Positions 40,117 to 62,937 of a stretch of 64,000 nucleotides of DNA are shown here, one piece after another (the first letter of the stretch is position 1; every line of letters starts with the position of its first letter). Under the pieces are notes generated by a model. The model worked only from the letters and a program-made list of their open reading frames with translations. It did no database searches and had not been told where the DNA came from. The position numbers and the translations under genes are program-made. This DNA comes from a marine gamma proteobacterium HTCC2080. Its GTDB lineage: Bacteria > Pseudomonadota > Gammaproteobacteria > Pseudomonadales > Halieaceae. The stretch is taken from positions 1 through 64,000 of the forward strand of contig AAVV01000009.1 in assembly GCA_000169115.1 (NCBI GenBank), written 5' to 3'.

Positions 40117-40701
40117 ATGATGACGCAGGGTCGTGTTGTTAGTGTGCATGTCGGTGCGACAGGTACCTTGGATAAGGAAGCCGATCAGGCTTTAGAAATG
40201 GCCCTTGATGGTATTGTCGGCGACCGCCACCGAGGAGCAACGCGCAAGGCGTGGGCGACCGGCGATAAGCAGGTCGGCGGCACGGTGCGGCGTAATGAGC
40301 GGCAGTGGTCGGCGATTGCCCATGAAGACGTCGAGAAAATTTCAGCGGCGATGTCCCTCGCCCAGCCCCTTACTGCAGGTGCTATTGCGGTAAATCTGTG
40401 TATTGAAGGTATTCCCGACTTTTCACGCTTGCCCCGGGGAACAACGCTTAGTTTTGAGTCCGGGGTGGTACTGATGGTCGAGGAGTACAACCCTCCCTGC
40501 GGAGATATGGCTCTCCACGTTTCAGAAAACAACGTAACGACGTCGGGAGAATCGCCCGCGCCACCCGCTTTCTCTGAGGCGGCAAAATTTTGCCGAGGAC
40601 TTGTGGGAGTTGTCGAAGTACCCGGTCTTATTCGCCCGGGTGATCAGGTGACGGTCGAATCAGAGCCGTTACCCAAATGGCTTCGGACCCAGGCCGAATG
40701 A
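40117..40701 (+). CDS. MOSC domain-containing protein
   Basis: 194 aa beta-barrel protein. GIVGDRHRG (32-40) and the conserved cysteine in NPPCGDM (C128) are MOSC hallmarks; C128 corresponds to the Cys that binds molybdenum cofactor sulfur or persulfide in MOCOS, YiiM and YcbX. Members are sulfur carriers or mARC/YiiM-like reductase components. Its stop overlaps the start of the following FAD oxidoreductase (ATGA at 40698-40701), so the two are coupled. That link suggests an oxidoreductase partnership, not a known one. Confidence 0.9.
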   Translation: MMTQGRVVSVHVGATGTLDKEADQALEMALDGIVGDRHRGATRKAWATGDKQVGGTVRRNERQWSAIAHEDVEKISAAMSLAQPLTAGAIAVNLCIEGIPDFSRLPRGTTLSFESGVVLMVEEYNPPCGDMALHVSENNVTTSGESPAPPAFSEAAKFCRGLVGVVEVPGLIRPGDQVTVESEPLPKWLRTQAE

Positions 40702-42287
40702 CCGCATACGATACGATCATTATTGGTGGTGGCCACAACGGGTTAACAACGGCGGCCTATCTGGCAAGGGCTGGGCAGCGAGTGTGTGTTTTAGAGCGGC
40801 GGCCAGTTGTTGGTGGTGCCGCCGTCACTGAAGAGTTTCACCCGGGCTACCGAAATTCTGTATTTTCTTATGTGGTGAGTTTACTCCGGCCGGAGGTGGT
40901 GAAGGATTTAGAGCTTGAGCGCTATGGCTATCAACCTATACCCCTCGATAATTCACTCTACCTCGATTCAATAGGCGAATATCTGCTATTAACAGGTGAT
41001 GAAGCGCATGATCGTGCCCAGTTTGCGAAGTTCTCCTCGACTGACTATGAGGCCTACTTGGCATTTGAGGAGGTTGTTGACCAAGTAGGTGGGTTGCTAG
41101 CAAAGCAATGGCTTAAAGAACCGCCGCGATTGGGTGATCAGGGCGTCAGCGACCTTATTAGCATGCTTAAATTAGGGGTCGATGTTTTTCGCCTCGATGC
41201 GGAGTCGCGCTGGCGACTGATGCAGTTTTTTATTGGTGCCCCTGAAACGATTATTGATCGATGGTTTGAAAGCCCAAAAGTGAAAGCAATGGTCGCCGCG
41301 CATATTATGCCGGCTAACTATGCACCCCTTAGCCAACCCGGGGCGAGTCTCGCCATGTTGCACCATGCTGTGGGGGAAATTGCGGGGCGCAAGGGTGCTT
41401 GGGGTTTGGTCAAAGGCGGCATGGGTAGCATTACTCAAGCGATGGCGCAGTCGGGTCAGGCTCATGGCGTGGAAATTAGAACCGACGCTTCGGTTGCTCG
41501 CATTAACGTCGATGGAGGGCGTGTTTGCGGGGTGACGCTGGAGAGTGGTGAGGTTATTCGTGCACCGACGGTTGCCGCCAACACTGACCCTAAGCGAACT
41601 TTTCTCAAGCTGCTAGGCGCGGAACATTTACCGGCCTCATTCGCCAGGGATATCGGCGCTTTTCGGCAGGAGTCCGCGTCCTTAAGGATGAATCTGGCGC
41701 TTTCTGAGCTCCCCCATTTTGCTGCTTTACCCGGGGGTGGACAGCTAGGTCCCCATCACAGGGCAAGCATTACCCTGATTGAAAGTGCGGCGCATCTTAA
41801 CGAAGCATTTCATAGTGCCCGCAGTGGAGTACCCGCCAATCCGCCAATCATTGAGGCGATTATTCCCAGTACGATTGATCCTGACCTCGTGGATAAACCG
41901 GGCCACCACGTCATGAGCTTGCTGTGCAAATACATGCCTTACACCCTGAGTGACGGGCAATCATGGGACGATCGTAAGCCCGCAGTTGTTGCACAAATTC
42001 TGGATTATCTTGAAAGGTTTATACCTGATGTCACGCGCATTCTAGTGGGTCATCAGTGCATGACGCCTTTAGATTTGGAGCGCGTACTAGGACTGACTGG
42101 GGGCGATATTTGTCACGGTCGATTAGAACCTGATCAACTGTTCAATATGCGGCCCCACCCCGATGCGGCCCAGTATGCAACGCCGGTTCCGGGACTTTAC
42201 CTTTGTGGTTCTGGGGCGCATCCGGGGGGCGGTGTGACTGGCGCTCCGGGGCATAACGCCGCGCAGCGCATTCTTCGGGACCTCTAA
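40698..42287 (+). CDS. PYROXD2/CrtI-like FAD oxidoreductase (copy 1)
   Basis: 529 aa from the ATG at 40698, overlapping the MOSC stop. FAD-binding Rossmann IIIGGGHNGLTTAAYLARAG (GGGHNG 10-15), then VLERRPVVGGAAVTEE, and a C-terminal FAD motif LCGSGAHPGGGVTGAPGHNA. This pattern belongs to the phytoene-desaturase-like branch typified by PYROXD2, whose bacterial members have no firmly known substrate. Cytosolic; no signal peptide. Two further paralogues lie at 53.4-56.5 kb. Same motif order in all three indicates shared descent. Confidence 0.9.
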   Translation: MTAYDTIIIGGGHNGLTTAAYLARAGQRVCVLERRPVVGGAAVTEEFHPGYRNSVFSYVVSLLRPEVVKDLELERYGYQPIPLDNSLYLDSIGEYLLLTGDEAHDRAQFAKFSSTDYEAYLAFEEVVDQVGGLLAKQWLKEPPRLGDQGVSDLISMLKLGVDVFRLDAESRWRLMQFFIGAPETIIDRWFESPKVKAMVAAHIMPANYAPLSQPGASLAMLHHAVGEIAGRKGAWGLVKGGMGSITQAMAQSGQAHGVEIRTDASVARINVDGGRVCGVTLESGEVIRAPTVAANTDPKRTFLKLLGAEHLPASFARDIGAFRQESASLRMNLALSELPHFAALPGGGQLGPHHRASITLIESAAHLNEAFHSARSGVPANPPIIEAIIPSTIDPDLVDKPGHHVMSLLCKYMPYTLSDGQSWDDRKPAVVAQILDYLERFIPDVTRILVGHQCMTPLDLERVLGLTGGDICHGRLEPDQLFNMRPHPDAAQYATPVPGLYLCGSGAHPGGGVTGAPGHNAAQRILRDL

Positions 42288-42419: not shown

Positions 42420-44186
42420 TTACTGTGGCGCGCTGACTCTTGGTGTGTAGCGGTGGCGTATGACATGCCATGCCAGTATCCCCAAGGGTATATGCAGCAC
42501 CGCAGGACCCAAGGCGAACCAGGGCTCCAGCCGCTCCCAATTTAAGGCGCCACCAGAGTGTAAAAACCCCGCCGCAGTTTGATAAGGCCTGACGTAGTAA
42601 TGCAATAACAGCCAAGGCATTGTTAATCCATAACCAACGAGTAGCACAGGGGCCAGAAGGGTTATCCGTGTCTCTTGCACACTAAGATCTTCGATGGGCG
42701 TTGTGTGCAATTTGGTGCGGTATGCGACTTCTGATACCGAAGGGGACTGTCCTCGTGAGCCCATCCAGACCCCTATTAGCGCCGCAACAATACCCAGCAA
42801 GGCCGGCTCAAAATAGCTGGGGAGACTGATCAACCCTAAGTAGTTAAGTCCCGCGGGGATAATATTTCCTGCGAGGCCCGACAGCATGCCCCAGCGGGCG
42901 CCCCGCGCCGTTATAGATCGATTCCAGATACTGAGCAGTCCAACGGGGCCCCAGCTTGAGGCGAATACCGTGCCAATGAAAATAGTTATCCAAAATACGT
43001 TGGGTGGTATCAAGATACTGAACACTAAAACGATGACACTAACCGCACCCATTGCCATGCGGGTGACGCCTAGGCTTGTGGTCTGTCGAGCGGGCATGAG
43101 GTCACGACTGACACTAAAACCTACTAGCGAGAGAAACGTGGAGGCTGAGGAGAGCGCTGCGGCGACGATACCTGCAACCAGTAATGCACCGAGAAAAGAG
43201 GGCACGAGATGCGTTGCAGCCCAAATCAATACGGTTTCCACAGGATCTATATTTGGGTTGGCCAGATTGATAAATCCGCCAATCCCATAAATAAGAATTT
43301 GCAGAAAAATCACTACAACGCATGTGTAAATCGAGGCGCGTAACACCACATGCTCGCTTTTCGCCATAAGGTGGCGACTGGACTGCCACGGACTAACGGC
43401 ATAGACCAAGCTCCAAGAAAGATCGATAACCACAAACCAAATTAAGAAGTCGATGGGAGTGAGCCAGCTGGTTCCTTCACCAATAATTCCATGCCAACTT
43501 GTCAGACCGGGTTTTACATCTTGTCGAGTTAAGTCTTCTATAGCCTGCTGAATGCCGCCAAATTCATCGAGAAGGTATCCCGCAAAAAAAAGCGTGGCAC
43601 CGGTGAACAGTAAAAACATTAGGGTGTCGGAAAGGATCACGCCCCGTGATCCGGCATAAAGGGTAAAGATTGAGTAGCTCAACCAGGCAATAGCGACCGC
43701 AGCGACGTAACTGATGTCGGTTAATTCAGCAATTAGCAGTGCCGCCCCCTGTGTAACGACTAGCAGATAGCCGCCTAAACCTATAATTACAGTTAGGCCC
43801 GCAATTCGCTGTACACCCGGATCGGCAAAGCGCTCGCCGAAGAAAGCTGCGACCGTGGTGGTTTTACTGCGTCGTAGATAGGTACCGAAAAAAAGCGCAC
43901 CGTAGATATAACCGGTCACCGTGATACCTGGCAGCAACAAATAGGGTCCTAGTTGCCCCTCATAGGTGAAGCCGGCTTCACCCATAAAGACCGTGGTACT
44001 CATGAGGCTCGCGACCAATGTTCCAACGATAAGCAGCGTCGGAGCCTGACGTCCCGCAACAAAGTAATCATCGAGGTTTTTAACTTTACGACCTGCGTAA
44101 TTACCAACAGCAATAAAGATCAGAACGCTGATGGCAATGGTGATCGTAAAAAGATTCACAGGGCTAGATTCCCGGCTTGTGGACAT
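42420..44186 (-). CDS. Sodium:solute symporter family (SSS) transporter
   Basis: 588 aa with about thirteen to fourteen membrane helices. SSS features: NLDDYFVAGRQAPTLLIVGT near the N-terminus, GEAGFTYEGQ, the sodium-site AALSSASTFLSLVG helix, and a long C-terminal extension with two further helices. These transporters import organic acids, amino acids, betaines or sugars with Na+. It follows the malonyl-CoA synthetase and decarboxylase genes on the same strand 127 bases downstream, so a dicarboxylate such as malonate is one candidate solute (inference). Ends opposite the PYROXD2-like gene. Confidence 0.92.
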   Translation of the reverse strand: MSTSRESSPVNLFTITIAISVLIFIAVGNYAGRKVKNLDDYFVAGRQAPTLLIVGTLVASLMSTTVFMGEAGFTYEGQLGPYLLLPGITVTGYIYGALFFGTYLRRSKTTTVAAFFGERFADPGVQRIAGLTVIIGLGGYLLVVTQGAALLIAELTDISYVAAVAIAWLSYSIFTLYAGSRGVILSDTLMFLLFTGATLFFAGYLLDEFGGIQQAIEDLTRQDVKPGLTSWHGIIGEGTSWLTPIDFLIWFVVIDLSWSLVYAVSPWQSSRHLMAKSEHVVLRASIYTCVVVIFLQILIYGIGGFINLANPNIDPVETVLIWAATHLVPSFLGALLVAGIVAAALSSASTFLSLVGFSVSRDLMPARQTTSLGVTRMAMGAVSVIVLVFSILIPPNVFWITIFIGTVFASSWGPVGLLSIWNRSITARGARWGMLSGLAGNIIPAGLNYLGLISLPSYFEPALLGIVAALIGVWMGSRGQSPSVSEVAYRTKLHTTPIEDLSVQETRITLLAPVLLVGYGLTMPWLLLHYYVRPYQTAAGFLHSGGALNWERLEPWFALGPAVLHIPLGILAWHVIRHRYTPRVSAPQ

Positions 44187-45702: not shown

Positions 45703-45705
45703 TTT

Positions 45706-47181
45706 TTAGAAAAATGCCTTGAGTTTGGGTTTAACGACCTTACCCATTGCGTTGCGTGGTAACTCTGGGGTAATCACAAGTGTCTTTGGAAGTTTATAGG
45801 ACGACAGCTTACCTTCGCACCATGTTTTAAGCGTGTCGATATTTAATGTTTGGCCTTCCCGAAGCACAACGACGGCGGCAACTGATTCGCCCCAAGTCCG
45901 GTCTTCAATTCCTAGCACGGCCACCTCGGCAATTGCCGGGTGAGCGAGAAGCTTTCCTTCAATTTCCAATGCTGAAAGTTTGTAGCCACCCGATTTGATG
46001 ATATCGATGGAGGAGCGTCCCATGATGCGGAAGTAGCCTTCTTCAATAACGGCAATATCGCCGGTGCAGAACCAACCATCTCTAAAGCTGTCAGTAGTGG
46101 CTTTTGGGTTGTTCCAGTACTCAAGAAATACGGTATCGCTTTTGACACGAATCTCACCAGACTCAGATGCTGTTGTGACTGGCTGGTGGTCTTCATTGAA
46201 AAGTTGCACGGTAACGCCAGGGAATGGTTGCCCAACATAACCCGCTCGTCGTTCCCCCGTGTAGGGGTTTGACAGGGCCATGCCGATTTCTGTCATGCCG
46301 TAGCGCTCTAACAAAGTCTGTCCGGTCAATCGCTGCCAGGTTTCAAAAATTGCTACGGGGCAGGCCGCTGACCCCGATACGTTCAGCCGCATAGCCCCAA
46401 ACGCCGCCTGGATAGACCGTGCTGTTTCAGTATCAAGACTTTCTAGATGGTCAATTAGCTTCACGTAAATGGTGGGCACTGCCATGAAGAGATTGTAGGT
46501 GCCTTGCACAGCCTCTGCGCACAGCTTTTCTATATTGAGCTTCGGCATGAGATGGACGGTTGCACCTGCCCACAAGGCGCAGCTGAGAACATTGATAATA
46601 CCGTGAACATGATGCAGCGGCAGAAAAAGAGGAATAACGTCATGTTCCGACCAGGCCCAGGCGTCAATGAGTGTTGTGATCTGAGCTTTTATATTTTTGT
46701 GGGTCGTCACAACGCCTTTGGGCAGACTTGTGGTGCCGCTGGTAAAGATGATTAAAGCCCTTCGATCAGCTAATAATTCCGGCATGGGCTGAAGATCGTC
46801 ACTCAAATGCTCAGCAACGGAGCTGACTGCGATGGCCAGTTTGTCGCACAGGGGTCTAATACGCTCAAGAAAAGGCTCTACTGCGATAAGGCGTTTGACG
46901 CCTGTGCTGCTCAGGCAATGTTCAAGCTCGACTTCTGCCGAGGCCGTGTTGAGTGGAATAGCAATACCACCGGCACGCCATATTCCGTGCATAACAGTGA
47001 CGTATTCCAGGCTGGCTGGAATTAGGAATGCAATTCGCTCCTCGTTGAGGTCCTCGGCACCCGCGAGAATGCCACTGGCAAAGCGCTGTACCTGCACATC
47101 CACTTGCGAATACGTGAATTGATCCTGCCCGGCGATAAGAGCGGGTTTGTTGGGGTTGGTGTGACTAAGGGCACTGTGCAT
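45706..47181 (-). CDS. matB: Acyl-CoA synthetase, malonyl-CoA synthetase-like
   Basis: 491 aa ANL-superfamily adenylating enzyme. AMP-binding P-loop IIFTSGTTSLPKG (144-156), GMTEIGMALSNPYTG, YFRIMGRSSIDIIKSGGYKLS, and the C-terminal catalytic lysine in LPRNAMGKVVKPKL. Length and its partner (malonyl-CoA decarboxylase three bases downstream) support malonate plus CoA plus ATP to malonyl-CoA, as in MatB. Sequence alone cannot exclude a methylmalonate or other short-chain acid. First gene of the matB-decarboxylase-symporter run. Confidence 0.85.
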   Translation of the reverse strand: MHSALSHTNPNKPALIAGQDQFTYSQVDVQVQRFASGILAGAEDLNEERIAFLIPASLEYVTVMHGIWRAGGIAIPLNTASAEVELEHCLSSTGVKRLIAVEPFLERIRPLCDKLAIAVSSVAEHLSDDLQPMPELLADRRALIIFTSGTTSLPKGVVTTHKNIKAQITTLIDAWAWSEHDVIPLFLPLHHVHGIINVLSCALWAGATVHLMPKLNIEKLCAEAVQGTYNLFMAVPTIYVKLIDHLESLDTETARSIQAAFGAMRLNVSGSAACPVAIFETWQRLTGQTLLERYGMTEIGMALSNPYTGERRAGYVGQPFPGVTVQLFNEDHQPVTTASESGEIRVKSDTVFLEYWNNPKATTDSFRDGWFCTGDIAVIEEGYFRIMGRSSIDIIKSGGYKLSALEIEGKLLAHPAIAEVAVLGIEDRTWGESVAAVVVLREGQTLNIDTLKTWCEGKLSSYKLPKTLVITPELPRNAMGKVVKPKLKAFF

Positions 47182-47328: not shown

Positions 47329-48630
47329 TCAAAGAAGGTCAAGGGCCTTGTAGTAGGTCATGCCTACAGCGAGGATTGCCCGGCCCAGCAGCGGTCCGCC
47401 GGGAAATGCCATATGAGGTATGTTTGCCATTGCCTCAAAACGGATAGATTCCCCAGCAATTTTTTCTGCGGTTACCCTGGCCATCATGTGCGTAGGCGCG
47501 ACGCCATGCCCTGAATACGCCTGAATGTAATGAATATTGTCAGAAAGCTGTCCCAGTTGCGGCATGCGATTGATGCCAATGCCAATCCAACCGCTCCACG
47601 CATAATCGATGGCCGTATTTTCCAGTTCTGGAAAGACCTGAGTCATTTTTTTGTGCATAACGCCTTTTAAATTTTTCGGTTCCATGCCCGTGTAATTCGA
47701 GAGCCCTCCAAACAGAAGTCTTTGGTCAGCCGAGAGGCGGAAGTAGTCGAGGGCGGTTCTTGGGTCACAGACCGCCACATCCCCGGGTAAAATGCGCTGT
47801 GCAAGCTCTCGAGTCAGTGGTGCCGTTGCAATGACTGAGCTCGCCGAGGGTAGGACGCGTTTGCTGAGCTTGGGAACCAAACCACCCATATAGGCATTGC
47901 CTGCCAAGACAATAGTTTTCGCAGTAATGCTGCCGGCCTCGGTACGGACCACCGGCAAAGCTCCGGGCTCTATCGCTATAACCCGCGACTGTTCGTAAAT
48001 GGCGCCACCTAGAGCACTTAGCGCCTGCGCTTCCCCGATACACAGGTTAAGGGGATGTAAATGGCCATTGGCCGTGTTGTGCAAACCGCCCAAATAACGA
48101 TCTGAGTTGACGTAGGTTTTGATTTCTTCACGGTCGAGCAGTGTGTAGGGGTGGGGGTTGCCGATTTCTTTTTCAAAAGCCTGCCATTCGGCAAACTGCT
48201 TCATGTGACGTGGCTTCAGCGCAACGTCACAATAGCCCCACTTGAGATCACACTGAATGTTATAGCGCTCCACGCGTTCGCGAATGACATCTCGCGCTTC
48301 GATACCCATCTGATAAATGTCACGAATTCCTGCTTCCCCGATCGCTTTTTTAAAGCGCTCGGGCGTGTGACCAATGCCTCCAATCACCTGCCCCCCATTG
48401 CGGCCTGTGGCGCCCCAGCCTATTCGGTTGGCTTCAACCAAAGCTACATCAAATCCACGCTCGGCAAGTTCAAGGGCGGTATTTACGCCTGAAAACCCAC
48501 CTCCAACCACCACCACATCGGCACGTTGGTCACCGGTTAATGACGGATAAGCGGTGGTCGTATTGACCGAGGCGGCGTAAAACGAGTGGGTGTGTTCTTG
48601 GGTTTCTTGAAGTGCGCGTAAACCAAACAT
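47329..48630 (-). CDS. FAD-dependent oxidoreductase, gamma-glutamylputrescine oxidase (PuuB)-like
   Basis: 433 aa from the ATG at 48630 with GAGGG six bases upstream; the frame extends to 48729 without one. DAO-type FAD protein with VVVVGGGFSGVNTALELAER (GGGFSG 43-48), IGWGATGRNGGQVIGG, and a C-terminal QAYSGHGVAPTHMMAR segment. PuuB-type enzymes oxidise gamma-glutamylated amines to aldehydes. The divergent glutamine-synthetase-like gene could make such a gamma-glutamyl amide, a textbook PuuA/PuuB pair. The amine is not known. Confidence 0.88.
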   Translation of the reverse strand: MFGLRALQETQEHTHSFYAASVNTTTAYPSLTGDQRADVVVVGGGFSGVNTALELAERGFDVALVEANRIGWGATGRNGGQVIGGIGHTPERFKKAIGEAGIRDIYQMGIEARDVIRERVERYNIQCDLKWGYCDVALKPRHMKQFAEWQAFEKEIGNPHPYTLLDREEIKTYVNSDRYLGGLHNTANGHLHPLNLCIGEAQALSALGGAIYEQSRVIAIEPGALPVVRTEAGSITAKTIVLAGNAYMGGLVPKLSKRVLPSASSVIATAPLTRELAQRILPGDVAVCDPRTALDYFRLSADQRLLFGGLSNYTGMEPKNLKGVMHKKMTQVFPELENTAIDYAWSGWIGIGINRMPQLGQLSDNIHYIQAYSGHGVAPTHMMARVTAEKIAGESIRFEAMANIPHMAFPGGPLLGRAILAVGMTYYKALDLL

Positions 48631-48773
48631 GATGACCCTCGGTAAAGTGTCCTGAGTAACGTATTCATAGTGTATCGAATGCAGAAAATAATTGGCGGGC
48701 ACCCTATACGGCAGGTAGACAAACCGCACAGGATTTTCTACCTTTTTATGTTAATCCACGAACGGCCATAATC

Positions 48774-50156
48774 ATGGAATATGCGGATCAAGCTGAACTC
48801 GATCGCTTTATGCAGATGCACCCGAATATTGAGGTGATCGAGCTCATCATGCCTGATTTCTCAGGTATTCCTCGGTGTAAACGTATACAGCGATCTGAGT
48901 TCAAGCGGCTCTTTAGCGGCACATTTTTGTCACCCCAGTCAGCACCGCTTTTGGGGGTGCGCGGCAACTTCTATGAAACTACGCCCTACCCGGAACTGGG
49001 AGGCGATCCCGATCAAATCATACGTCCCGTTGCTGGAACACTGGCAGTTGTGCCGTGGTACGAGTCACCGGTGGCTCAAGTCCTGGTGGCTTACACCGAT
49101 GAAAGCGGTGAGCTTGATTGGGTTGATACCCGCTGCCCGCTGGTGTCGGTACTTAACAAATTTGCGGCCTCAGGGCTTCACCCTACCGTGGCCACCGAGC
49201 TTGAGTTCTACTTACTAGGCCATTCTGAGGGCGAGCGCCCGGCACCGCTCAAAGGAAATATTCCGGGCACCCAATGGGTTCAGGAGGGAATTCAGTACTG
49301 CATGTCTGACGATCTCTTTGATTGTGATGCTTTTTTAAATGACGTACGTATTGCCAGTGAGCTTCAGGATGTTCCCCTAACGGCTATTCATAGCGAGTTT
49401 TCACCAGGTCAGTGGGAAATAAATACGCACCACCAAACCGATGTGCTGTTGGCAGCGCAGCATGGGTTGCTGCTGCGGCGCATTGTAAAGGGGGTTGCAC
49501 GGAAACACGGGTTTGGCGCGACATTCATGGCTAAGCCTTTTGCGGACATTCCTGGCAGTGGCATGCACATTCATGCCAGCGTCTATGACGCGGCTGGTGC
49601 CAATATTTTTGCTGCTCCTGAGGCAACCGACCCTCCACACCTGATGCCACGATTGCGTCATGCCGTGGCGGGCTTAGGGACCCTGCTCGATGCCTCGATG
49701 TTGTGCTTTGCGCCGAATCCCAACTCTTATCGGCGTGTGCAGGCGGGTGCACTGGCGCCTTCAGGAAAGAATTGGGGCTATGATCACCGTGACGTGGCAC
49801 TTCGCATCCCGCGCTCCAACGAACAGAGTCGTCGTATTGAGCACCGTGTAGCCGGTGCCGATGCTAATCCCTATTTAGTGCTGGCAGCGGTTTTAGCCGG
49901 TATTCATTGGGGGCTCGGTCAGCAGGGCGATCCGGGTGCACCAGTGCCCCGAGAGGCAGATCTTTCAGAAGATGAAACGTCTTTACCGATTCGCCTAGAT
50001 GAAGCGATACGATTTTTTTCGGACAGTCAGATCATGCAAGATTATTTAGGCGAAAAGTTTACCCGGGTTTATGGCGCTATTCGTCGGGGCGAGAGCAATG
50101 ACTACTACAGTCAGATCCCGGACTTAGACTATCAGTGGTATCTGAGAGCGTTGTAA
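48774..50156 (+). CDS. Glutamine synthetase family protein, gamma-glutamylpolyamine synthetase (PuuA)-like
   Basis: 460 aa GS-fold ligase. ATELEFYLLG (metal Glu), FSPGQWEINTHH, KPFADIPGSGMHIHAS (ATP/metal loop), APNPNSYRRV, and IEHRVAGADANPYLVLAAVLAG are GS catalytic regions; the short N-terminal domain and lack of the adenylylation Tyr site point to the PuuA/GlnA3 branch and not ammonia-assimilating GlnA. It should join glutamate to an amine using ATP. Divergent from PuuB-like; convergent with the AraC gene, nine bases apart. Confidence 0.9.
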   Translation: MEYADQAELDRFMQMHPNIEVIELIMPDFSGIPRCKRIQRSEFKRLFSGTFLSPQSAPLLGVRGNFYETTPYPELGGDPDQIIRPVAGTLAVVPWYESPVAQVLVAYTDESGELDWVDTRCPLVSVLNKFAASGLHPTVATELEFYLLGHSEGERPAPLKGNIPGTQWVQEGIQYCMSDDLFDCDAFLNDVRIASELQDVPLTAIHSEFSPGQWEINTHHQTDVLLAAQHGLLLRRIVKGVARKHGFGATFMAKPFADIPGSGMHIHASVYDAAGANIFAAPEATDPPHLMPRLRHAVAGLGTLLDASMLCFAPNPNSYRRVQAGALAPSGKNWGYDHRDVALRIPRSNEQSRRIEHRVAGADANPYLVLAAVLAGIHWGLGQQGDPGAPVPREADLSEDETSLPIRLDEAIRFFSDSQIMQDYLGEKFTRVYGAIRRGESNDYYSQIPDLDYQWYLRAL

Positions 50157-50165
50157 TTCGTCGAA

Positions 50166-50939
50166 TTACTGCGACTGGCTTTGGGCCCTTCGGAATTTAG
50201 CCGGCGAGTGGCCATTGATTTTTTTAAACGCGGTATAAAAAGTAGAGGTTGAATTAAATCCCACTGATAGTGCGACATCGAGAATGGCGGGGAAGCGCTG
50301 GTTGCCGTTACGTAAAATGTCCATTGCCTCGCTGACGCGATATTGATTGATATAGTCAAAAAACGTCATCTCTAAACCCGAATTGATCGCTTGAGACAGG
50401 TGGTTTACCGACGTTCCTAGGTGTTCGGCAAGCTTAGGTAACGACAGGTCTGGATCTAGATAGAGCTTTTCATCGGCCATTAACTGCTTCAAGTTGGTCA
50501 GCAATGCCTTCAAGGCCTCCCTGTGTAATCCAGACTTTGCGTACCGCCGCACGGCGTGTGTTGATTTGATGATTTCGTCAGGTGTTAACGCTTGATAGTA
50601 GTCGCTAATTTCCTGTGCCATAGAGCCTTTGAGCGTTATGAATTCTGCGCCACGCCAAATAATGCTTTTATCAGAATGTTCTATAGGTGATGCCTGATAT
50701 TGAAAGGCTATGGTTTGTGCGTTGTGCAGCACAGCACCCAGTACTTCGAAGTGATAAACCGCCCCCTGAAAGTATTCAACCAGCTCGGTTTCAAGTGTCG
50801 TGTGTGTCAGTTGCTGTTGGGTTGCTGCATCAATGTAGCGACCATTTTCGTGGAGGTGTTCAACCACCCCATTGGGGTCCCGCCTGTTCCAAGCGTTGAC
50901 GTAGCTGTCGACGAATGAAACAGCGAAGCCTTTGCGCAT
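50166..50939 (-). CDS. AraC-family regulator with N-terminal NTF2/SnoaL-like domain
   Basis: 257 aa. Residues 5-115 look like an NTF2/SnoaL-like cone fold (FVDSYVNAWNRRDPNGVVEH, then GRYIDA), unusual as an AraC sensor. Residues 150-257 are the AraC DNA-binding domain with two helix-turn-helix units (LSLPKLAEHLGTSVNHLSQA, and ILDVALSVGFNSTSTFYTAF) ending in SPAKFRRAQ. No membrane segment. Its convergent position to the PuuA-like gene suggests it controls the amine genes (inference). Confidence 0.88.
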   Translation of the reverse strand: MRKGFAVSFVDSYVNAWNRRDPNGVVEHLHENGRYIDAATQQQLTHTTLETELVEYFQGAVYHFEVLGAVLHNAQTIAFQYQASPIEHSDKSIIWRGAEFITLKGSMAQEISDYYQALTPDEIIKSTHAVRRYAKSGLHREALKALLTNLKQLMADEKLYLDPDLSLPKLAEHLGTSVNHLSQAINSGLEMTFFDYINQYRVSEAMDILRNGNQRFPAILDVALSVGFNSTSTFYTAFKKINGHSPAKFRRAQSQSQ

Positions 50940-51289: not shown

Positions 51290-52141
51290 ATGACATCATC
51301 GTCTTCACCGACAACCGGTCACTTTATGGGGATAGGCTACCCCCAGTGGATAAAGCTCGTCGTTTATTCGCTGCTATTGGTTAATTTCGGGAACTATGTT
51401 CTGCTCGATATTAATCAGGTGAGTCACACTTACCACGAAGGCTGGCGCTGGTTCGATTGGACCTCTGCCTTTGCCACTACCCTCGATGAGTTGGGCTGGT
51501 TCGTCTTACTTTTTTTGCTCGAGTTAGAGACTTACGTACTTTCAGATGCCGCGTTCACGCCTTTTTGGGTGAGGTTTATGAAGGTCGTCAGAGTCCTTTG
51601 CTACCTTGTTATCGGTCATGCGGTCGTTGCTTACGCAGAGTATTTGCATGACTTGTTGAATAGTATCGAGCATGTGGGGGTTTCACTCTGCAGTTTTGTT
51701 GATCAGGGGCTATCAGCAGCGCGCAATTTGGCCTACCAAGAACTCGACGCCACCAACTGTAAGAGCTTCTCGACCGATACTACGTTTTATATTTTCTCCC
51801 AGGGCCAAGTTATTACCGATACGGCCGGTATGGGTGTTGAATTTGAATTGGCTTGGGCGGACATTGCGGAGGTTCTGCTTTGGCTGCTGATCCTTGCGCT
51901 TATTGAGGTTCGCTTGCAGCTACAGGATCGAGGAGTGAGTCAGGGTCGTTTGCTGAGCTTTGCCGAAAACGCAAAGTATTTTCTTTATAGCGGCCTCTGG
52001 CTAATCGCCGGGTATTGGGCGTTTCGAGGTCACTGGTTGTTTGCTTGGGATGAGGCGCTTTGGATATTGGGGTTTATGGCAATTGGCATGAATTTATCGC
52101 AATGGCGCGACGAAATTGAGGCCGAAAAGCAGCCGGCGTAG
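51290..52141 (+). CDS. Polytopic membrane protein, unknown function
   Basis: 283 aa with about six hydrophobic helices (near 20-40, 68-84, 95-115, 188-208, 225-243 and 250-266). A soluble loop of about 70 residues between helices 3 and 4 carries two Cys (LCSFVDQ and TNCKSF). Acidic residues occur inside or next to helices (FLLELETYVL, LALIEVRLQLQ), suggesting ion handling or a channel-like role, but no family is recognised. GGAG lies upstream of the ATG. Transcribed towards the GcvT-like gene. Confidence 0.82.
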   Translation: MTSSSSPTTGHFMGIGYPQWIKLVVYSLLLVNFGNYVLLDINQVSHTYHEGWRWFDWTSAFATTLDELGWFVLLFLLELETYVLSDAAFTPFWVRFMKVVRVLCYLVIGHAVVAYAEYLHDLLNSIEHVGVSLCSFVDQGLSAARNLAYQELDATNCKSFSTDTTFYIFSQGQVITDTAGMGVEFELAWADIAEVLLWLLILALIEVRLQLQDRGVSQGRLLSFAENAKYFLYSGLWLIAGYWAFRGHWLFAWDEALWILGFMAIGMNLSQWRDEIEAEKQPA

Positions 52142-52161: not shown

Positions 52162-53382
52162 TTAGGTCAGGCTGGGCGGCGTCACTTTAGCGCGCTCGGG
52201 TCCCCAAAAGGCTTTTTTCTGTACGGTACATCGCGCCACTTTACGGTGATGCCTCAGTTCCTTTTGGTAGTAAATTTCAGTCCAGATGTCGCCAGACAAC
52301 GCTTCGACATTGATCATTGCTAAGGCGATATTTGCTTTAACCGAGGGGGACCACATAGCTGATGTGACGTACCCTATTTCGTCGCCACAGTCGTGATCGC
52401 TGTACAGAAGCGCCTCTTCTGCCGGTTTATTACCCTCGATGTTGAGCTTGGTGAGCAGGGTTTTTGGTCCTGTTTTGTGTTGTTCAAGCAGTGCGCGGCG
52501 ACCGTTAAAGTGTGGCTTTTTAAAATCTACCAGCCAGGCAAGATCGAGTTCTAAGGGAGTCTGGTCGTACTCAAAGTTGACGGTTTTAAGCGCCTCGTTG
52601 AATTCCATGTAAGGCATGATGAATCCGGCTTCGAGGCGGGCCATATTAGTGGCGGCTTCGCCGTAGGGCTGGATACCATAGTTGGCCCCCGCCTCATACA
52701 AACAGTCCCATAACGTGAGTGCTAGGTTGGGTTCAATCCAGAGCTCGTAGCCTAAGTCACCCGTGAAGCCGGTACGGGAGATCATTATCTCACCCTCAGC
52801 GAAGGGGTAATGGCCTATGTCAAAGGGCTTCAATGCACTCGTGGCCTCCAGCCCCATGGCCTTCAGTACGGCAAAACTGGTGGGCCCTTGGAGGGACAAT
52901 GCGGCCAACGCCTCGGTGTGTTCGACAATCGATAACCGATTAAACCCCAAGGCGCTTTTACGCAGCCAAGCAAGGCAGGGACTGCCGCAGGTCAGCAGAA
53001 ATTTTGATTCACCCAAGCGAAAGATCGTTCCGTCATCGATCATGCGCCCCGAATCATTACACCAGGCGACATAGGTGACGCGGTTGATTCGTAGCTTGTT
53101 GAGATCACGAGTGACCATGCGATCGAGCATGGCGAGGGCATCTGCGCCCTCGATCAAATATTTTTGCATGGGGCAGATGTCGTAAGTGCCGCAAGTGTTG
53201 CGGATGCAAAAGTACTCGTAGTCGACGTCATAATAATAATCGGCAAACTTAAACCCGTTCCATGACGACCAGGCATCTCGCAGGTTGAGTGCTGCTTGCC
53301 GCTCATGAAAATGAGAGAGCTTTAACCGCTCTCCGGCGTAGGGGTCGGCGACATTTTCTCGAAGAATATCCGGATTACTCAT
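52162..53382 (-). CDS. GcvT/DmdA-like folate-dependent aminomethyl/methyl transferase
   Basis: 406 aa from the ATG at 53382, overlapping the upstream gene by eight bases; an ATG at 53394 sits directly on the GGAGG site, which is too close. The GcvT fold shows in NTCGTYDICPMQKYLIEG, ISRTGFTGDLGYELWIEP, MARLEAGFIMPY, and the C-terminal WSPSVKANIALAMINVEA domain. Relatives are the glycine-cleavage T protein, DMSP demethylase and the folate domains of sarcosine/dimethylglycine oxidases, all moving a C1 unit to tetrahydrofolate. Third gene of the PYROXD2-pair operon. Confidence 0.88.
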   Translation of the reverse strand: MSNPDILRENVADPYAGERLKLSHFHERQAALNLRDAWSSWNGFKFADYYYDVDYEYFCIRNTCGTYDICPMQKYLIEGADALAMLDRMVTRDLNKLRINRVTYVAWCNDSGRMIDDGTIFRLGESKFLLTCGSPCLAWLRKSALGFNRLSIVEHTEALAALSLQGPTSFAVLKAMGLEATSALKPFDIGHYPFAEGEIMISRTGFTGDLGYELWIEPNLALTLWDCLYEAGANYGIQPYGEAATNMARLEAGFIMPYMEFNEALKTVNFEYDQTPLELDLAWLVDFKKPHFNGRRALLEQHKTGPKTLLTKLNIEGNKPAEEALLYSDHDCGDEIGYVTSAMWSPSVKANIALAMINVEALSGDIWTEIYYQKELRHHRKVARCTVQKKAFWGPERAKVTPPSLT

Positions 53383-54997
53383 CGTAGAAATCATCCTCCG
53401 GTACGGTGTTGGGTTTACGCAGGTCTCTTAAAATCTCTCGGGCAGCGTTGGCACCACAGGCTGAGGAGACACCGCCGCCGGGGTGGGTTGACGAGCCACA
53501 CATGTACATATTCTTTAGCGGCATACGGTACTGCCCGTAACCGGGGAAGGGGCGGTTAAACAGCAGCTGATCAATCGTTAATTCACCTTGAAATATATTG
53601 CCCTCAGTAAGACCAATCTCATTTTCTATTTCATGGGGAGTCCGCACCTCGGCGTGAACCACCAAGTCTTTAAAGCCCGGGGAATAGCGCTCGATTTTAT
53701 CGATAACAGTAGCCCCAAAGGCATCGCGTTTTTCAGGAGTCCAGTCGCCGTCGGCTAGTGTGGGTGGACAATATTGGATAAAAGTCGACATCCAATGACA
53801 CCCGGGTGGCGCCACCGTGGGATCCCAAGCGGAGGGAATGACGGCTTCAATAAAGGGGTCATCGGACCAACGGCCACGCTTCCAGCAGTCGTAGGCCCGT
53901 TCCATGGTTTCAAGGGAACCGGAAAAACCTTGTCCCCCGCGATTGACGTAGCGGTTGTCTGGCACGTGGGTAAACTTGGGCATACCCGACAGAGCGATAT
54001 TTACTTTTCCTGATGAACCTCGAATTTTGAAATTGCTTGCCCGCTCAAAGATGCCTGGGGGTAGGTCATTTTTGTCCATAACTTTAGTGAACGTGCGCTT
54101 GGCATCGAGGTTGGAGACGACAATTTTGCCGTAAATTTCGTCACCATTTTCTAGAGCCACACCAACCGTAGCGCCGTCTTTTACGAGAATTTGTGCAACA
54201 GGAGCTTCAGTCTGAATGCTACCGCCATGTTCTTTGAGGGCCCCTGCGAGAGCATGGGAAATAGCGCCCATACCTCCCCTCGCTAGGCCCCAAGCGCCCA
54301 CGTTGCCGTCGACATCACCCATAACGTGGTGCAGTAAAATGTAGGCGGAACCGGGGGAGTAGACCCCCAGAGCTGTGCCAATAATGCCAGGGCTAGCCAT
54401 GGCTGACTTAATGAGATCGTTTTCGAAATAGTCTTCGAGAAAGTCAGCGGCACTCATGGTGAAAAAACGAATGTATTCGTACAGCTCGCGCTCACCTAGA
54501 CCCCAAAACTGTTTCCCCAGCCACAGTAATTCCTTGATATCCCTAGGCTTGAATGAGCTCGGGTCGGGGGGAGTGCGCAGCAGTGTTTTACGAATAAGCT
54601 GGGCATATCGGCCTAGGTCCGCCTGAAACCGTGACATGGCATCGGCGTCATGGGGTGAATGGCGCCGAAGTTCCAAATACGCAGCCTCTTCATCGGCGTA
54701 GTCAATAAGCACGCGATCGCCCCGGTCGCTAAAATTCACCGTGCCCAGATAGGGCACTAGCAGAAGCCCGTGACGCGTTAAATCAAGATCGCGATGGATA
54801 GATTGGCGCATCATGGAGCACACGTAAGAGCAGCTGGAGTAGAACCAACCCTCGTGCATTTCTCGGGTGACGGCGGCTCCACCGATATAATCATTTTTTT
54901 CTAAGACAACAACATCAAGGCCCGCTTTAGCGAGGTAGGCTGCTGCGGTGAGACCGTTATGACCGGCGCCCACAATAATCGCATCATATTGCTTCAC
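53375..54997 (-). CDS. PYROXD2/CrtI-like FAD oxidoreductase (copy 2)
   Basis: 540 aa from the GTG at 54997, which overlaps the previous stop (GTGA) and has GGGAG eight bases upstream; the longer frame to 55072 is a shadow. FAD motif AIIVGAGHNGLTAAAYLAKAG (GAGHNG 10-15), VLEKNDYIGGAAVTREM, C-terminal MCGSSTHPGGGVSSACGANA. It resembles copy 1 and copy 3. Tandem and translationally coupled with copy 3, suggesting a heteromeric complex or sequential steps (inference). Substrate not known. Confidence 0.92.
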   Translation of the reverse strand: MKQYDAIIVGAGHNGLTAAAYLAKAGLDVVVLEKNDYIGGAAVTREMHEGWFYSSCSYVCSMMRQSIHRDLDLTRHGLLLVPYLGTVNFSDRGDRVLIDYADEEAAYLELRRHSPHDADAMSRFQADLGRYAQLIRKTLLRTPPDPSSFKPRDIKELLWLGKQFWGLGERELYEYIRFFTMSAADFLEDYFENDLIKSAMASPGIIGTALGVYSPGSAYILLHHVMGDVDGNVGAWGLARGGMGAISHALAGALKEHGGSIQTEAPVAQILVKDGATVGVALENGDEIYGKIVVSNLDAKRTFTKVMDKNDLPPGIFERASNFKIRGSSGKVNIALSGMPKFTHVPDNRYVNRGGQGFSGSLETMERAYDCWKRGRWSDDPFIEAVIPSAWDPTVAPPGCHWMSTFIQYCPPTLADGDWTPEKRDAFGATVIDKIERYSPGFKDLVVHAEVRTPHEIENEIGLTEGNIFQGELTIDQLLFNRPFPGYGQYRMPLKNMYMCGSSTHPGGGVSSACGANAAREILRDLRKPNTVPEDDFYDE

Positions 54998-56538
54998 GAT
55001 AGAATCTCCCGCGCCGCATTGCGTCCAGGATTGCCACTTATGTCGCCAGCGGGATGGCTCCCCGAACCACAAATATAGAGACCTTCTATGGGTGTTGCAT
55101 ACTGCGCCGCTTCGTAGGTGGGGCGCATCATGAGAAGTTGATCAATAGCAGGTTCTACATGGTGCCAATGTCCCCCCGCAACCCGAAACTGCTGTTCCAA
55201 GTCATGCGGGGTCAGCAGTTCGCTACCCAACACAAGGTTCTTGATACCCGGTGCATAGCTGTCGAGCTGTGAAATCAGCTGCGTGGTCAGATTGTCGCGA
55301 GCAGCGTCCGTCCAGCCGCCTTTCAGCTCACCCGGTATATACATGACGTTTGCGGAGAGAATGTGCTGACCGGTTGGGGCATTATCAGGCGCCGTAAGGG
55401 TGGGTAGGCAGACATCCATAACAGGCTGGTCGGGGAGTTCGCCATATTTGGCTGCGTCCCAGGCAAACTCTATGGTATCCATCGACGGCGCCAGTATCAG
55501 CCGCCCTGATGGAGAATCAAGACCGGTGAATTTTGGTAACGCAGACAGTGCCAAATGTAACTTGGCGACATAGCCCTTGCTGCGCAGCCGGCGAATGCGG
55601 TTGCTGAATTCAATTTCCAGATGCCGAGGGCCCACTAAATCAAGAAATGTCGTTTTGGGATCTGCACTGGAAACAACCCGTTCGCTGGTGAGTACCTCGC
55701 CATTCTCAAGTTGCACACCGCTGCAATGTTGGCCCTGTTCGCTGGGTGTTATGACGATCTGCGCTACCGGAGTTCCTGTTTTAATAGTGACCCCGGCGGC
55801 AGTCGCGGCGCTGGTCAATGCGCTTAAAAAGTTTTTCATGCCACCGGTGGGTACGCTGTGCTCGCCTTGCCAATGTCCCGCCATTCGATTCAGAAGCGTC
55901 AAAACGCCCTGGTTAGGGGACCGCGGCGCGAGTTGAGAGCCTAATAGGCCGTCCCAGCACAGTGCGGCCTTAAGTGATTCCCCTGAGAAGTGTTCATCGA
56001 CCAAGTCGCGCATGGGTAAGGTGGCGACTCGAAAGAACTCGAGCATATCGGCTTTGCCCATAGTTCGAATGTTGAACCCCATTTGTCCAAAGGTCAGCAC
56101 ATCTTTAAGGCCTGCCGCGCCAATGCGCGGCATGGTTTTTGACCAAAAGGGTGCGAGTGCTTTGCTAAAAGTGACGAGTTGTTTCTTATAGTCGGCAAAG
56201 GCCGCCGTATCGGTTTCACACGCACCAGAAATATGGGAGCTTGTCAGCCGTACCGGCGGTTCGGAAAGGGACAGTGCCGTCGTGGCTATAGCATCGACAC
56301 TGGGCACAAATCCATGCCTAGGCAGATCAAGGGCATCGATTATTGCCTTTGGTAAGGCGTACAGGGTTTGGGCAACAGATGCGTTAAACCCTGTATAAAA
56401 CTCGCGCTGACCGGCCAGACCTCCTAGGGTTTCTGAGGCCTCGACGAGCACAACCTGCTGCCCCGCTTTCGCTAACAGCGTGGCGCAGATGAGGCCGTTG
56501 TGGCCGCCTCCAATTACGATTGTGTCAGTTGTGCTCAT
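54994..56538 (-). CDS. PYROXD2/CrtI-like FAD oxidoreductase (copy 3)
   Basis: 514 aa. FAD motif IVIGGGHNGLICATLLAKAG (GGGHNG 10-15), LVEASETLGGLAGQ, and C-terminal ICGSGSHPAGDISGNPGRNA. It lacks the CrtI-type long membrane-associated helix of plant desaturases. GGGA lies upstream of the ATG. First gene of a three-gene operon: copy 3, copy 2, GcvT-like. The C-terminal glycine motif differs from the other two copies (HPAGDISG versus HPGGGV), hinting at a separate role. Confidence 0.92.
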   Translation of the reverse strand: MSTTDTIVIGGGHNGLICATLLAKAGQQVVLVEASETLGGLAGQREFYTGFNASVAQTLYALPKAIIDALDLPRHGFVPSVDAIATTALSLSEPPVRLTSSHISGACETDTAAFADYKKQLVTFSKALAPFWSKTMPRIGAAGLKDVLTFGQMGFNIRTMGKADMLEFFRVATLPMRDLVDEHFSGESLKAALCWDGLLGSQLAPRSPNQGVLTLLNRMAGHWQGEHSVPTGGMKNFLSALTSAATAAGVTIKTGTPVAQIVITPSEQGQHCSGVQLENGEVLTSERVVSSADPKTTFLDLVGPRHLEIEFSNRIRRLRSKGYVAKLHLALSALPKFTGLDSPSGRLILAPSMDTIEFAWDAAKYGELPDQPVMDVCLPTLTAPDNAPTGQHILSANVMYIPGELKGGWTDAARDNLTTQLISQLDSYAPGIKNLVLGSELLTPHDLEQQFRVAGGHWHHVEPAIDQLLMMRPTYEAAQYATPIEGLYICGSGSHPAGDISGNPGRNAAREILS

Positions 56539-56628: not shown

Positions 56629-57522
56629 TTAAGCCGCGACCTGAGCCTTTGGGGGCTCGGATTCTTTGTTCAAGGTGAGCAGCCAAGTGCCTAGCCCTAA
56701 TAATAGAAGAGGCAGGAAGGGTTGAAACGGCCAAAAGGGCAACCAAAGCTCTAGGGTTTGGGATGAAGTTGGTGCCAACAGAAATGCTGAAACTGATTTT
56801 TGCCACAGGGAACCTGTAATCGCCAGTAACAGTCCGCCTGCGACCAGCAGCGTACCGCCAATCGCATACCCGCTGATGTTTTGTTGAGGTTGCCGTTGGT
56901 TCTTACCCCAGGCCGCGATCCGCAGGGCAAAGGCGGTGAAGCCCAGACCATAAAAGAGGTAGTCGAGCCAAAGATCACTCCCGTAATAGGCTGTATTCCA
57001 CCAATAAACACTGAAAGGGTAGGCCCATAGAAAATAGACCCCCGAACGGTGCAATACGCGCCAATGGGCAGCGCTAAGGTAGCGCCGTCCAAAGGGAAAT
57101 GAGGTCACAATCATGGCCACTAGAAACAAATAGCCGCTGCTACCCTCCAGCTCGTCCCGTAAGAAATAGATATTGGTGTAGTAATGATCGGGGTGCCCTA
57201 CCGAAATCCAAAAAATAAACGCACCCTGCCAGGCCATGGCTGTGGCGAAGGCAAGACCGACGTAGCGCCGATTGCGCAGCAGCCAACGAGTCACAGTGCT
57301 TGGGAACAAACGGGCCACAGCCGATGTGGCTGTGATCAGAAAAATAAGCGGTACGGCCCAGCGCACAGAATATTGGATCATGGCCGAAATGCCGTCAGGG
57401 CTGCTTAAGTCAGTGAGCAGGCTGGCCCTGACCATAAAACTTGCGGGCACCAAAGCGAGCCACCAAAAGAGCGGCCAGCCGTTGATCAGGGGTGACTTAT
57501 CTATAAAACGTTGCCCGCTCAC
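56629..57522 (-). CDS. Ferric-reductase-like transmembrane protein
   Basis: 297 aa with about eight membrane helices. The order of a long N-terminal helix pair, RWLLRNRRYVGLAFATAMAW, and HWRVLHRSGVYFLWAY resembles the ferric-reductase-like transmembrane domain (PF01794). In that family, histidines on the third and fifth helices bind two b haems. Here the first expected His position reads GLAFATAMAWQ, without His, so haem binding may be lost. No FAD/NADH reductase domain is fused. Role unknown; lies 90 bases upstream of the PYROXD2 operon on the same strand. Confidence 0.55.
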   Translation of the reverse strand: MSGQRFIDKSPLINGWPLFWWLALVPASFMVRASLLTDLSSPDGISAMIQYSVRWAVPLIFLITATSAVARLFPSTVTRWLLRNRRYVGLAFATAMAWQGAFIFWISVGHPDHYYTNIYFLRDELEGSSGYLFLVAMIVTSFPFGRRYLSAAHWRVLHRSGVYFLWAYPFSVYWWNTAYYGSDLWLDYLFYGLGFTAFALRIAAWGKNQRQPQQNISGYAIGGTLLVAGGLLLAITGSLWQKSVSAFLLAPTSSQTLELWLPFWPFQPFLPLLLLGLGTWLLTLNKESEPPKAQVAA

Positions 57523-62869: not shown

Positions 62870-62937
62870 CGACGTGGCTGTGACAATTTTGACGCGGCGG
62901 GTGAGCCCGTTTTTTTACCGATGACAAGGATTGAGGC

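Follow-up and report, generated by a model that had tools for sequence, protein, structure and literature searches.

In a 64,000-nucleotide stretch of DNA from the marine gammaproteobacterium HTCC2080 (family Halieaceae; assembly GCA_000169115.1, contig AAVV01000009.1, positions 1 to 64,000; hereafter, the window), we found a conserved and apparently undescribed three-protein unit, which consists of two flavoproteins, FAD-A and FAD-B, and a GcvT-like one-carbon (C1) transferase. The three genes stay together in every examined locus with enough upstream DNA to tell. We consider it probable that the triad works as one catabolic system, in which the flavoprotein pair oxidizes an N-methyl amine and the GcvT-like protein passes the C1 unit to tetrahydrofolate (THF).

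The three-gene unit in the window

Three open reading frames (ORFs) on the minus strand form the unit. The first encodes FAD-A (54994..56538, 514 amino acids [aa]), a flavoprotein of the CrtI/amine-oxidase fold. The second encodes FAD-B (53375..54997, 540 aa), the most conserved flavoprotein of the unit, with a GTG start at 54997. The third encodes the GcvT-like protein (52162..53394), which has 406 aa when read from the ATG at 53382 and 410 aa when read from the ATG at 53394. FAD-A and FAD-B overlap by four shared bases, GTGA, which hold the TGA stop of FAD-A and the GTG start of FAD-B. The in-frame GcvT ATG at 53382 gives an 8-base overlap with the FAD-B stop (ATGAGTAA), and the alternative in-frame ATG at 53394 gives a 20-base overlap. 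The initial annotation had described the three minus-strand genes, the GTGA junction and the 8-base overlap, and all were found where it had placed them. It had also taken the flavoproteins for a coupled pair of copies. Instead, they form a conserved hetero-pair, 31% identical, and the unit is this hetero-pair (A and B) plus GcvT.

Conservation of the triad in other genomes

Homologues of the triad were searched for with GcvT alone as the query. The genome collection was scanned with a profile from an alignment of triad GcvTs (A1), begun from the second copy of the unit's own genome. The scan gave at least 578 GcvT relatives, and the analysis used the 80 best, at least four of whose contigs duplicate loci of the G series. 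Upstream DNA of at least 3.4 kb is available for 61 of these loci, and all 61 carry both FAD-A and FAD-B upstream of GcvT, on the same strand. The gene order is B-A in 56 of them and A-B in four, and one has an extra B frame. The other 19 loci, which have less upstream DNA, show both flavoproteins (7 loci), FAD-A only (10) or neither (2). The full triad was also present in 17 of 17 further chosen loci, which represent 7 of 10 phylum-wide and 10 of 19 order-wide matches (29 matches outside the own genome in total); one of the 17 (L164) apparently lies on the same contig as L087.

From 117 GcvT rows, we obtained 90 complete triads under set length and distance limits, with GcvTs less than 98% identical to each other. 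With starts taken from the longest ORFs, 176 of the 180 junctions in these triads are at most 20 bp. Greedy ORF picking lost some genes, such as FAD-A in L030 and GcvT in L045, and its counts are therefore lower bounds. The co-occurrence in 61 of 61 loci, together with the tight junctions, indicates an association beyond chance. Thus, homologues of the three genes, which the initial annotation had read as one unit and whose order it had proposed to look for elsewhere, do occur together in other genomes, in every testable locus.

We also compared pairwise identities across the 90 triads. The correlation was 0.925 for GcvT/FAD-B, 0.856 for GcvT/FAD-A and 0.807 for FAD-A/FAD-B, and shuffled identity matrices reached at most 0.116 (500 shuffles per pair). 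The parts of the triad have not been swapped between units; the correlation itself is expected from shared descent.

Seven plasmid records hold a GcvT relative at 1e-60. In four annotated records, an aminomethyltransferase family protein follows two NAD(P)/FAD-dependent oxidoreductases, and a fifth is unannotated there. In the own genome, a related flavoprotein pair was absent from the 20-kb stretches around three other GCV_T genes (L055, L071 and L072; three of the nine over the cut-off). A gene fusion was considered at G665, where an 867-aa frame is open; it was rejected as no more than an open frame, since GcvT (425 aa) and FAD-A are encoded there by two distinct ORFs.

Distribution and two clades

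A GcvT match at 1e-60 was found in 42 of 100 genomes of the own family (own genome included), and the identities of these matches fall into three tiers, 68-82%, 53-57% and 43-48%. With the profile at 1e-110, again counting the own genome each time, matches occurred in 4 of 274 genomes at the class level, 12 of 194 at the order level and 11 of 398 at the phylum level. The carriers among the best 80 relatives include members of Halieaceae, Porticoccaceae, Woeseiaceae, Kiloniella, Shinella, Rhizobium, Hoeflea, Rhodobacterales and a few betaproteobacteria, and none among these 80 lies outside Pseudomonadota. The distribution of the triad is thus patchy but wide.

In a tree of the 90 GcvT rows, all 22 rows with the order A-B-GcvT, that of the window included, stand behind one branch with a support of 100/100. 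A single change of gene order suffices on this tree, and the unit stayed whole across the change. There are two clades, a widespread B-A-GcvT clade and the A-B-GcvT clade of the window. The own genome carries both kinds, the A-B-GcvT unit in the window and a B-A-GcvT unit on contig C7, and its five flavoprotein-family proteins at 1e-60 are the two triad pairs and a third flavoprotein, FAD-C.

This second triad of the own genome (L054, G000:C7:2236-7874) has a GbcA-like Rieske gene directly downstream and a divergent TetR gene upstream. Another genome (G059, including L034 and L035) packs three triads into about 24 kb; PurU, a Pot transporter and two class-III aminotransferases are found between these triads or next to them.

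The GcvT-like protein resembles the GcvT domain of trimethylamine N-oxide demethylase

The GcvT-like protein scored above the cut-offs of Pfam GCV_T (182.5 bits) and GCV_T_C (35.2 bits). Its best NCBIfam family was the GcvT domain of trimethylamine N-oxide (TMAO) demethylase (Tdm), at 230 of 1100 bits and below the cut-off; only positions 386-761 of the 763 in that profile are covered, and the first 385 are unmatched. It also lay below the cut-offs of T-protein (197 of 300 bits for PRK00389 and 148.9 of 235.85 for TIGR00528), of the dimethylsulfoniopropionate demethylase DmdA (134.1 of 410 bits, NCBIfam) and of SoxA (127.2 of 1164 bits, NCBIfam). The NCBIfam scores against DesA and LigM were 59 and 57 bits. 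In a PDB profile search, TMAO demethylase reached 250 bits and T-protein 215 bits. By its sequence, the protein thus appears nearest to the TMAO demethylase GcvT domain, by a modest margin over T-protein. Tdm and the GcvT-like protein have the stretches DDGTLFR and SRTGxTGxLGYE in common. Unlike the GcvT-like protein, Tdm is a two-domain protein, and the N-terminal 385 positions of its profile have no match here.

The positions aligned to D96 and E195 of Thermotoga maritima T-protein, which we take to be residues with a folate (THF) role, are conserved to at least 97% in 117 GcvT sequences. R227 of the same protein is not retained in the GcvT-like family, which argues that it is not a plain T-protein; nor is it retained in the aligned TMAO demethylase sequence.

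GcvT-fold enzymes that act on oxygen or sulfur also score with this protein (DmdA 134, DesA 59 and LigM 57 bits), and GcvT might instead be a THF-dependent O- or S-demethylase of the LigM/DesA or DmdA kind, with the flavoproteins acting elsewhere on the same substrate. However, TMAO demethylase scores higher (230 bits), and many neighbors in the B-A-GcvT clade are amine genes (see below). We regard such an O- or S-demethylase as quite improbable.

Families, conservation and folds of FAD-A and FAD-B

Amino_oxidase was the top Pfam family for both flavoproteins (67.3 and 66.7 bits, above cut-off), with matches that span residues 15-512 in FAD-A and 15-323 in FAD-B. DAO was also above its cut-off in both, with the best stretch within the first 39-55 residues, and other FAD/NAD-binding families above cut-off match mostly the N-terminal nucleotide-binding stretch. 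The pair is thus no DAO-type flavoprotein joined to or paired with GcvT, as the long matches are to Amino_oxidase. CrtO was the best NCBIfam family for both (259 and 213.4 of 1000 bits, below cut-off), and both lay below the crtI_fam cut-off (110 and 92.6 of 238.1 bits). No NCBIfam family was above its cut-off among the best 25 of 73 for FAD-B and the best 25 of 29 for FAD-A.

Positions conserved to at least 97% numbered 137 in FAD-B (105 sequences) versus 44 in FAD-A (113 sequences). Since FAD-B is far more conserved, we read it as the probable bearer of the active site, and FAD-A may be a partner or a second site.

AlphaFold models were obtained with a predicted local distance difference test score (pLDDT) of 87.3 and a predicted template modeling score (pTM) of 0.90 for FAD-B, and 91.5 and 0.91 for FAD-A. 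The top structural match of both models was the gamma-carotenoid desaturase 4rep. For FAD-B it was followed by CrtI, two archaeal oxidoreductases and Rab-GDI, and putrescine oxidase and monoamine oxidase ranked sixth and seventh. For FAD-A, an archaeal oxidoreductase came second and nicotine oxidase third, and putrescine oxidase ranked 24th. This mixed ranking leaves the fold undecided between desaturase and amine oxidase.

The best NCBIfam family (CrtO) and the best fold (4rep) would both suit a role of the flavoproteins as carotenoid-type desaturases or ketolases, with no functional tie to the neighboring GcvT. The own genome also has the phytoene synthase family (PF00494), which occurs in 7 of the 8 searched genomes of its genus (own included). 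However, the CrtO scores are far under the cut-off of 1000, the own-genome PF00494 gene lies on another contig (C21), and all 61 testable loci have GcvT joined to the pair. Further, of the 30 genomes with a related GcvT that were searched, 18 lack PF00494, as do 11 of the 22 among them with a completeness of at least 90% and a contamination of at most 5%. Genomes that lack this family make the carotenoid explanation less likely, and we consider it very unlikely.

Neighbors of the B-A-GcvT clade point to amines

Neighbors were counted up to 9 kb away from those triads that have 14 kb of flank or more, namely 13 A-B-GcvT and 51 B-A-GcvT loci, whose rows are related to each other. The neighbor labels derive from the first set of loci, and the protein identities given below are those of single representatives per label. 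Near the B-A-GcvT triads, we found Rieske genes in 28 of 51 loci, PotD in 26, PotA in 28 and TetR in 34. Less frequent neighbors were the class-III aminotransferases AT3a (15/51) and AT3c (13/51), acyl-CoA ligase (15/51), aldehyde dehydrogenase (8/51) and the formyl-THF deformylase PurU (3/51). As a yardstick, the 11 ring-hydroxylating oxygenases of the 3.58-Mb own genome amount to about 0.06 per 18 kb; among the B-A-GcvT rows, which are related to each other, 28 of 51 have a Rieske gene nearby.

The Rieske protein beside the second own-genome triad scored above the cut-offs of PF00355 and PF00848. It lay below that of GbcA (292 of 670 bits), though GbcA was its best curated family. Its PDB matches were 3n0q (250 bits), 3vca and 4qup (240 bits each) and carnitine monooxygenase (133 bits). 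The PDB title of 4qup includes monooxygenase and demethylase, and 3vca and 4qup are presumably Stc2.

The PotD-like protein of L036 was nearest to Pseudomonas polyamine-transport proteins (315 bits) and Escherichia coli PotF. For AT3a (L042), putrescine and polyamine:pyruvate transaminases were within the nine best PDB matches, the best being an unnamed aminotransferase, and the single curated family above cut-off was named just "aminotransferase". AT3c (L029) was closer to glutamate-1-semialdehyde aminomutase and GntE and is little informative. The PurU and agmatinase neighbors were above their cut-offs; the ADP-forming acyl-CoA ligase was below its own, and so was the PuuC-like aldehyde dehydrogenase (531.5 of 850 bits). 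Taken together, the context of the B-A-GcvT clade suggests a polycationic, N-methylated and partly quaternary amine.

Polyamine-type transporters and aminotransferases near many B-A-GcvT triads could also mean that the flavoprotein pair is a polyamine dehydrogenase acting on the C-N backbone, with GcvT scavenging formaldehyde from the Rieske enzyme or another enzyme. The fold likeness to putrescine oxidase noted above (rank 6 for FAD-B, rank 24 for FAD-A) agrees with this. However, GcvT is joined to the pair in all 61 testable loci, and the clade of the window keeps GcvT joined although just one of its 13 triads has a Rieske gene nearby. A GcvT kept without a nearby Rieske gene fits direct hand-over better than scavenging, and we think backbone oxidation unlikely.

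One locus has a context of its own. In the single-cell genome of a marine alphaproteobacterium (L151, 1033-20222), the triad occurs with two acyl-CoA dehydrogenases, a crotonobetainyl-CoA-hydratase-like protein (290.9 of 500 bits) and a beta-keto acid cleavage enzyme (BKACE). This cluster points to an omega-amino acid CoA route at that locus and resembles a carnitine-type route. We rejected a carnitine reading for the whole family, since L151 is the only locus where those genes were examined.

Neighbors of the window unit and its clade

The A-B-GcvT clade of the window has few of these genes, with Rieske in 1 of 13 loci, PotD and PotA in none, TetR, AT3a and acyl-CoA ligase in none, and PurU in one. 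No Rieske gene was labeled within 9 kb of the window triad.

Other genes recur instead. Upstream of FAD-A on the same strand lies a 297-aa membrane protein (56629..57522, minus strand; near 5/13 A-B-GcvT and 0/51 B-A-GcvT triads), which has no Pfam or NCBIfam match at E 0.001. On the other side of the unit stand Mem283, a 283-aa membrane protein of unknown family (51290..52141, plus strand; 10/13 and 4/51), a SnoaL-AraC regulator (50166..50939, minus strand; 8/13 and 2/51), a GlnA-like glutamate-amine ligase (48774..50156, plus strand; 6/13 and 15/51) and a DAO-family flavoprotein (47329..48729, minus strand; 10/13 and 9/51). The best NCBIfam family of the GlnA-like ligase is gamma-glutamylputrescine synthetase, at 189.5 of 650 bits and below cut-off, and that of the DAO-family protein is L-pipecolate oxidase (188.5 of 600 bits). 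Lying about 4 kb from the window triad, the DAO-family protein is a possible partner of GcvT. Farther away are a sodium:solute symporter (SSF; 42420..44186, minus strand; 6/13 and 2/51), about 9.5 kb from the unit, and FAD-C (40677..42287, plus strand; 6/13 and 0/51), about 11 kb from it. FAD-C, the "copy 1" of the initial annotation, is a third flavoprotein of the superfamily, 36% identical to FAD-B and 32% to FAD-A.

The nearest relative of the window triad (G049, 82% identical) has no labeled neighbor, which speaks against tight coupling of the wider cluster; the gene upstream of it encodes a 500-aa FAD_binding_2 protein.

It is conceivable that the A-B-GcvT clade has changed its function and works as a redox-C1 unit in biosynthesis or detoxification, unlike a catabolic B-A-GcvT clade. 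The different neighbors and regulator (AraC 8/13, TetR 0/13, Rieske 1/13 and Pot 0/13) and the G049 triad without labeled neighbors would agree with such a change, but both clades share the GlnA-like ligase (6/13 and 15/51) and the DAO-family protein (10/13 and 9/51). We give this change of function only a small chance.

Several further features were observed near these genes. Mem283 accompanies units in several genera, with Asp, Glu, His and Trp among the residues conserved across 16 rows. The place of the 297-aa membrane protein, just upstream of FAD-A, is taken in five loci (L038, L044, L045, L051 and L057) by a molybdopterin oxidoreductase of the formate-dehydrogenase type (c22, about 680 aa). 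Between the DAO and symporter genes, the window holds genes for malonyl-CoA decarboxylase and an acyl-CoA (malonyl-CoA-like) synthetase (44314-47181). We rejected them as the end of a C3-amine route, since a second decarboxylase was seen only in L038 among the loci viewed. A MOSC-domain protein (40117-40701) overlaps the start of FAD-C, and a relative of it also follows the triad in L036. The genes at 35058-38335 encode a BCCT betaine-type transporter and, after it on the other strand, an M24-family peptidase-like protein; the two could serve another methylated-osmolyte function. At 62078-63846, a 2-oxopent-4-enoate hydratase-like gene (383.9 of 408.8 bits) is followed by an apparent acetaldehyde dehydrogenase, recognized by eye, perhaps the start of a meta-cleavage pathway.

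Proposed mechanism and substrate

A flavoprotein beside a GcvT fold is an established layout for oxidation of N-CH3 groups with transfer of the carbon to THF. In the probable catabolic system proposed here, the FAD-A/FAD-B hetero-pair would act on a secondary or tertiary amine and oxidize an N-methyl group of it to a methylene-iminium, which is equivalent to formaldehyde. The GcvT-fold partner would move the one-carbon unit to THF, yielding 5,10-methylene-THF. In the B-A-GcvT family, a Pot-type ATP-binding cassette transporter would import the polycationic amine, a Stc2/GbcA-like Rieske oxygenase would take the first methyl off the quaternary nitrogen, and the triad would take off the remaining methyls. 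Deamination by a class-III aminotransferase, or gamma-glutamylation by the GlnA-like ligase, may follow, and then oxidation by the aldehyde dehydrogenase and activation by the ADP-forming acyl-CoA ligase. In the A-B-GcvT clade, the same chemistry might act on a tertiary or secondary N-methyl amine that a different transporter imports. The adjoining genes for the GlnA-like ligase and the DAO oxidase suggest a primary amine arising after demethylation.

We infer complex formation, N-methyl oxidation, THF as the acceptor and the substrate, for the clade of the window by way of its sister clade. Since few amine genes lie near the triads of the window's clade, its substrate is drawn from that sister group. 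The most likely substrates are N-methylated diamines or polyamines, or a methyl-lysine together with the omega-amines made from it. The review PMC6356823 carries, among its references, a title on N-methylation of diatom long-chain polyamines, and we speculate that such polyamines could be a marine source.

Known systems resemble the triad in part. The GcvT-like protein matches the GcvT parts of dimethylglycine dehydrogenase, dimethylglycine oxidase and heterotetrameric sarcosine oxidase (144, 136 and 141 bits). Unlike dimethylglycine dehydrogenase and sarcosine oxidase, the triad has a CrtI/amine-oxidase-type pair, and its GcvT is a separate protein. SoxD- or SoxG-like genes were absent from the named neighbor clusters, although no search was aimed at them. 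The demethylations that begin with the Rieske enzymes Stc2, GbcA and CntA are similar in that the Rieske protein adjoining the second own-genome triad is a relative of these enzymes and 28 of 51 B-A-GcvT triads have a Rieske gene nearby; the known pathways of this kind use other flavoproteins for the next methyls. Like the Puu pathway, some triads have GlnA-like, DAO, PuuC-like aldehyde dehydrogenase and class-III aminotransferase genes near them, but the GlnA-like protein (189.5 of 650 bits) and the aldehyde dehydrogenase (531.5 of 850 bits) are below the Puu cut-offs.

The N-methyl oxidation with C1 capture that the initial annotation proposed fits the context of the wider family, with its Stc2/GbcA/CntA-related Rieske proteins, PurU near a few triads, polyamine-type transporters and aminotransferases, but the window's own clade has few such genes. 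As for the substrates it had suggested, no sarcosine or pyridine-carboxylate genes were recognized among the labeled neighbors, for which no dedicated search was made. We also considered homarine catabolism and rejected it, as nothing recognized in the cluster pointed to it; a literature search gave no paper whose title concerns a hom operon.

Several observations weigh against the proposed demethylation. Besides the top fold match to a carotenoid desaturase, the phytoene synthase family in the own genome, the lack of R227, the scarcity of Rieske and Pot genes in the window's clade and the lone triad of G049, the co-occurrence in 61 of 61 loci comes from the best 80 of at least 578 relatives of a profile built from triad GcvTs. 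The PotD-like protein of L151 reaches 48.8 of 636 bits for PotF, and the transported amine may therefore differ. The own genome has formate-THF ligase (Fhs) and no PurU above cut-off. Finally, we know of no enzyme of the unit that has been characterized biochemically.

A possible PYROXD2 link and the meaning of the unit

The initial annotation called the flavoproteins PYROXD2-like. By this label, they may be kin to the human protein; no PYROXD2 chain was among the PDB matches listed for FAD-B and FAD-A. The function of human PYROXD2 is little known, according to PMC8777681. In association studies, its locus explains 50% of the variance of N6-methyllysine and is associated with dimethyllysine, trimethyllysine and N-methylpipecolate (PMC8109053); with methyl- and dimethyllysine in children (PMC9730628); with symmetric dimethylarginine and methyl-lysines (PMC11988406); and with urine trimethylamine and plasma dimethylamine (PMC3169529). 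Hydroxyhexadecanoylcarnitine is also listed for PYROXD2 in PMC9320943, which counts against the link. Human genetics gives an independent hint at the substrate, tied to the bacterial proteins through the label of the initial annotation.

In the open-access literature searched, we found nothing that describes the system or its substrate, or that treats PYROXD2 as a demethylase; most subscription papers and all preprints lie outside it, so a description elsewhere is possible. To our knowledge, this flavoprotein family is not associated with such a use in N-demethylation. With moderate confidence, we assign the unit a function in THF-linked N-demethylation by a new kind of flavoprotein pair. Our wider proposal is tentative, and we hold it to be somewhat doubtful: the triad may found a class of THF-linked N-demethylases with a PYROXD2-type hetero-pair, a widespread proteobacterial route for methylated polyamines and methyl-lysines derived from protein and diatom silica, and may reveal human PYROXD2 as an oxidative N-demethylase of methyl-lysine-type amines.

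If the proposed demethylation is right, marine and soil proteobacteria would have an unrecognized use of methylated nitrogen, with the methyl carbon recovered via folate. A recurrent and uninformative annotation, in which a pair of NAD(P)/FAD-dependent oxidoreductases stands with an aminomethyltransferase family protein (as in the plasmid records), would become a testable pathway. The unit would also provide a bacterial model for human PYROXD2, whose locus accounts for about half of the variance of blood N6-methyllysine in one study.

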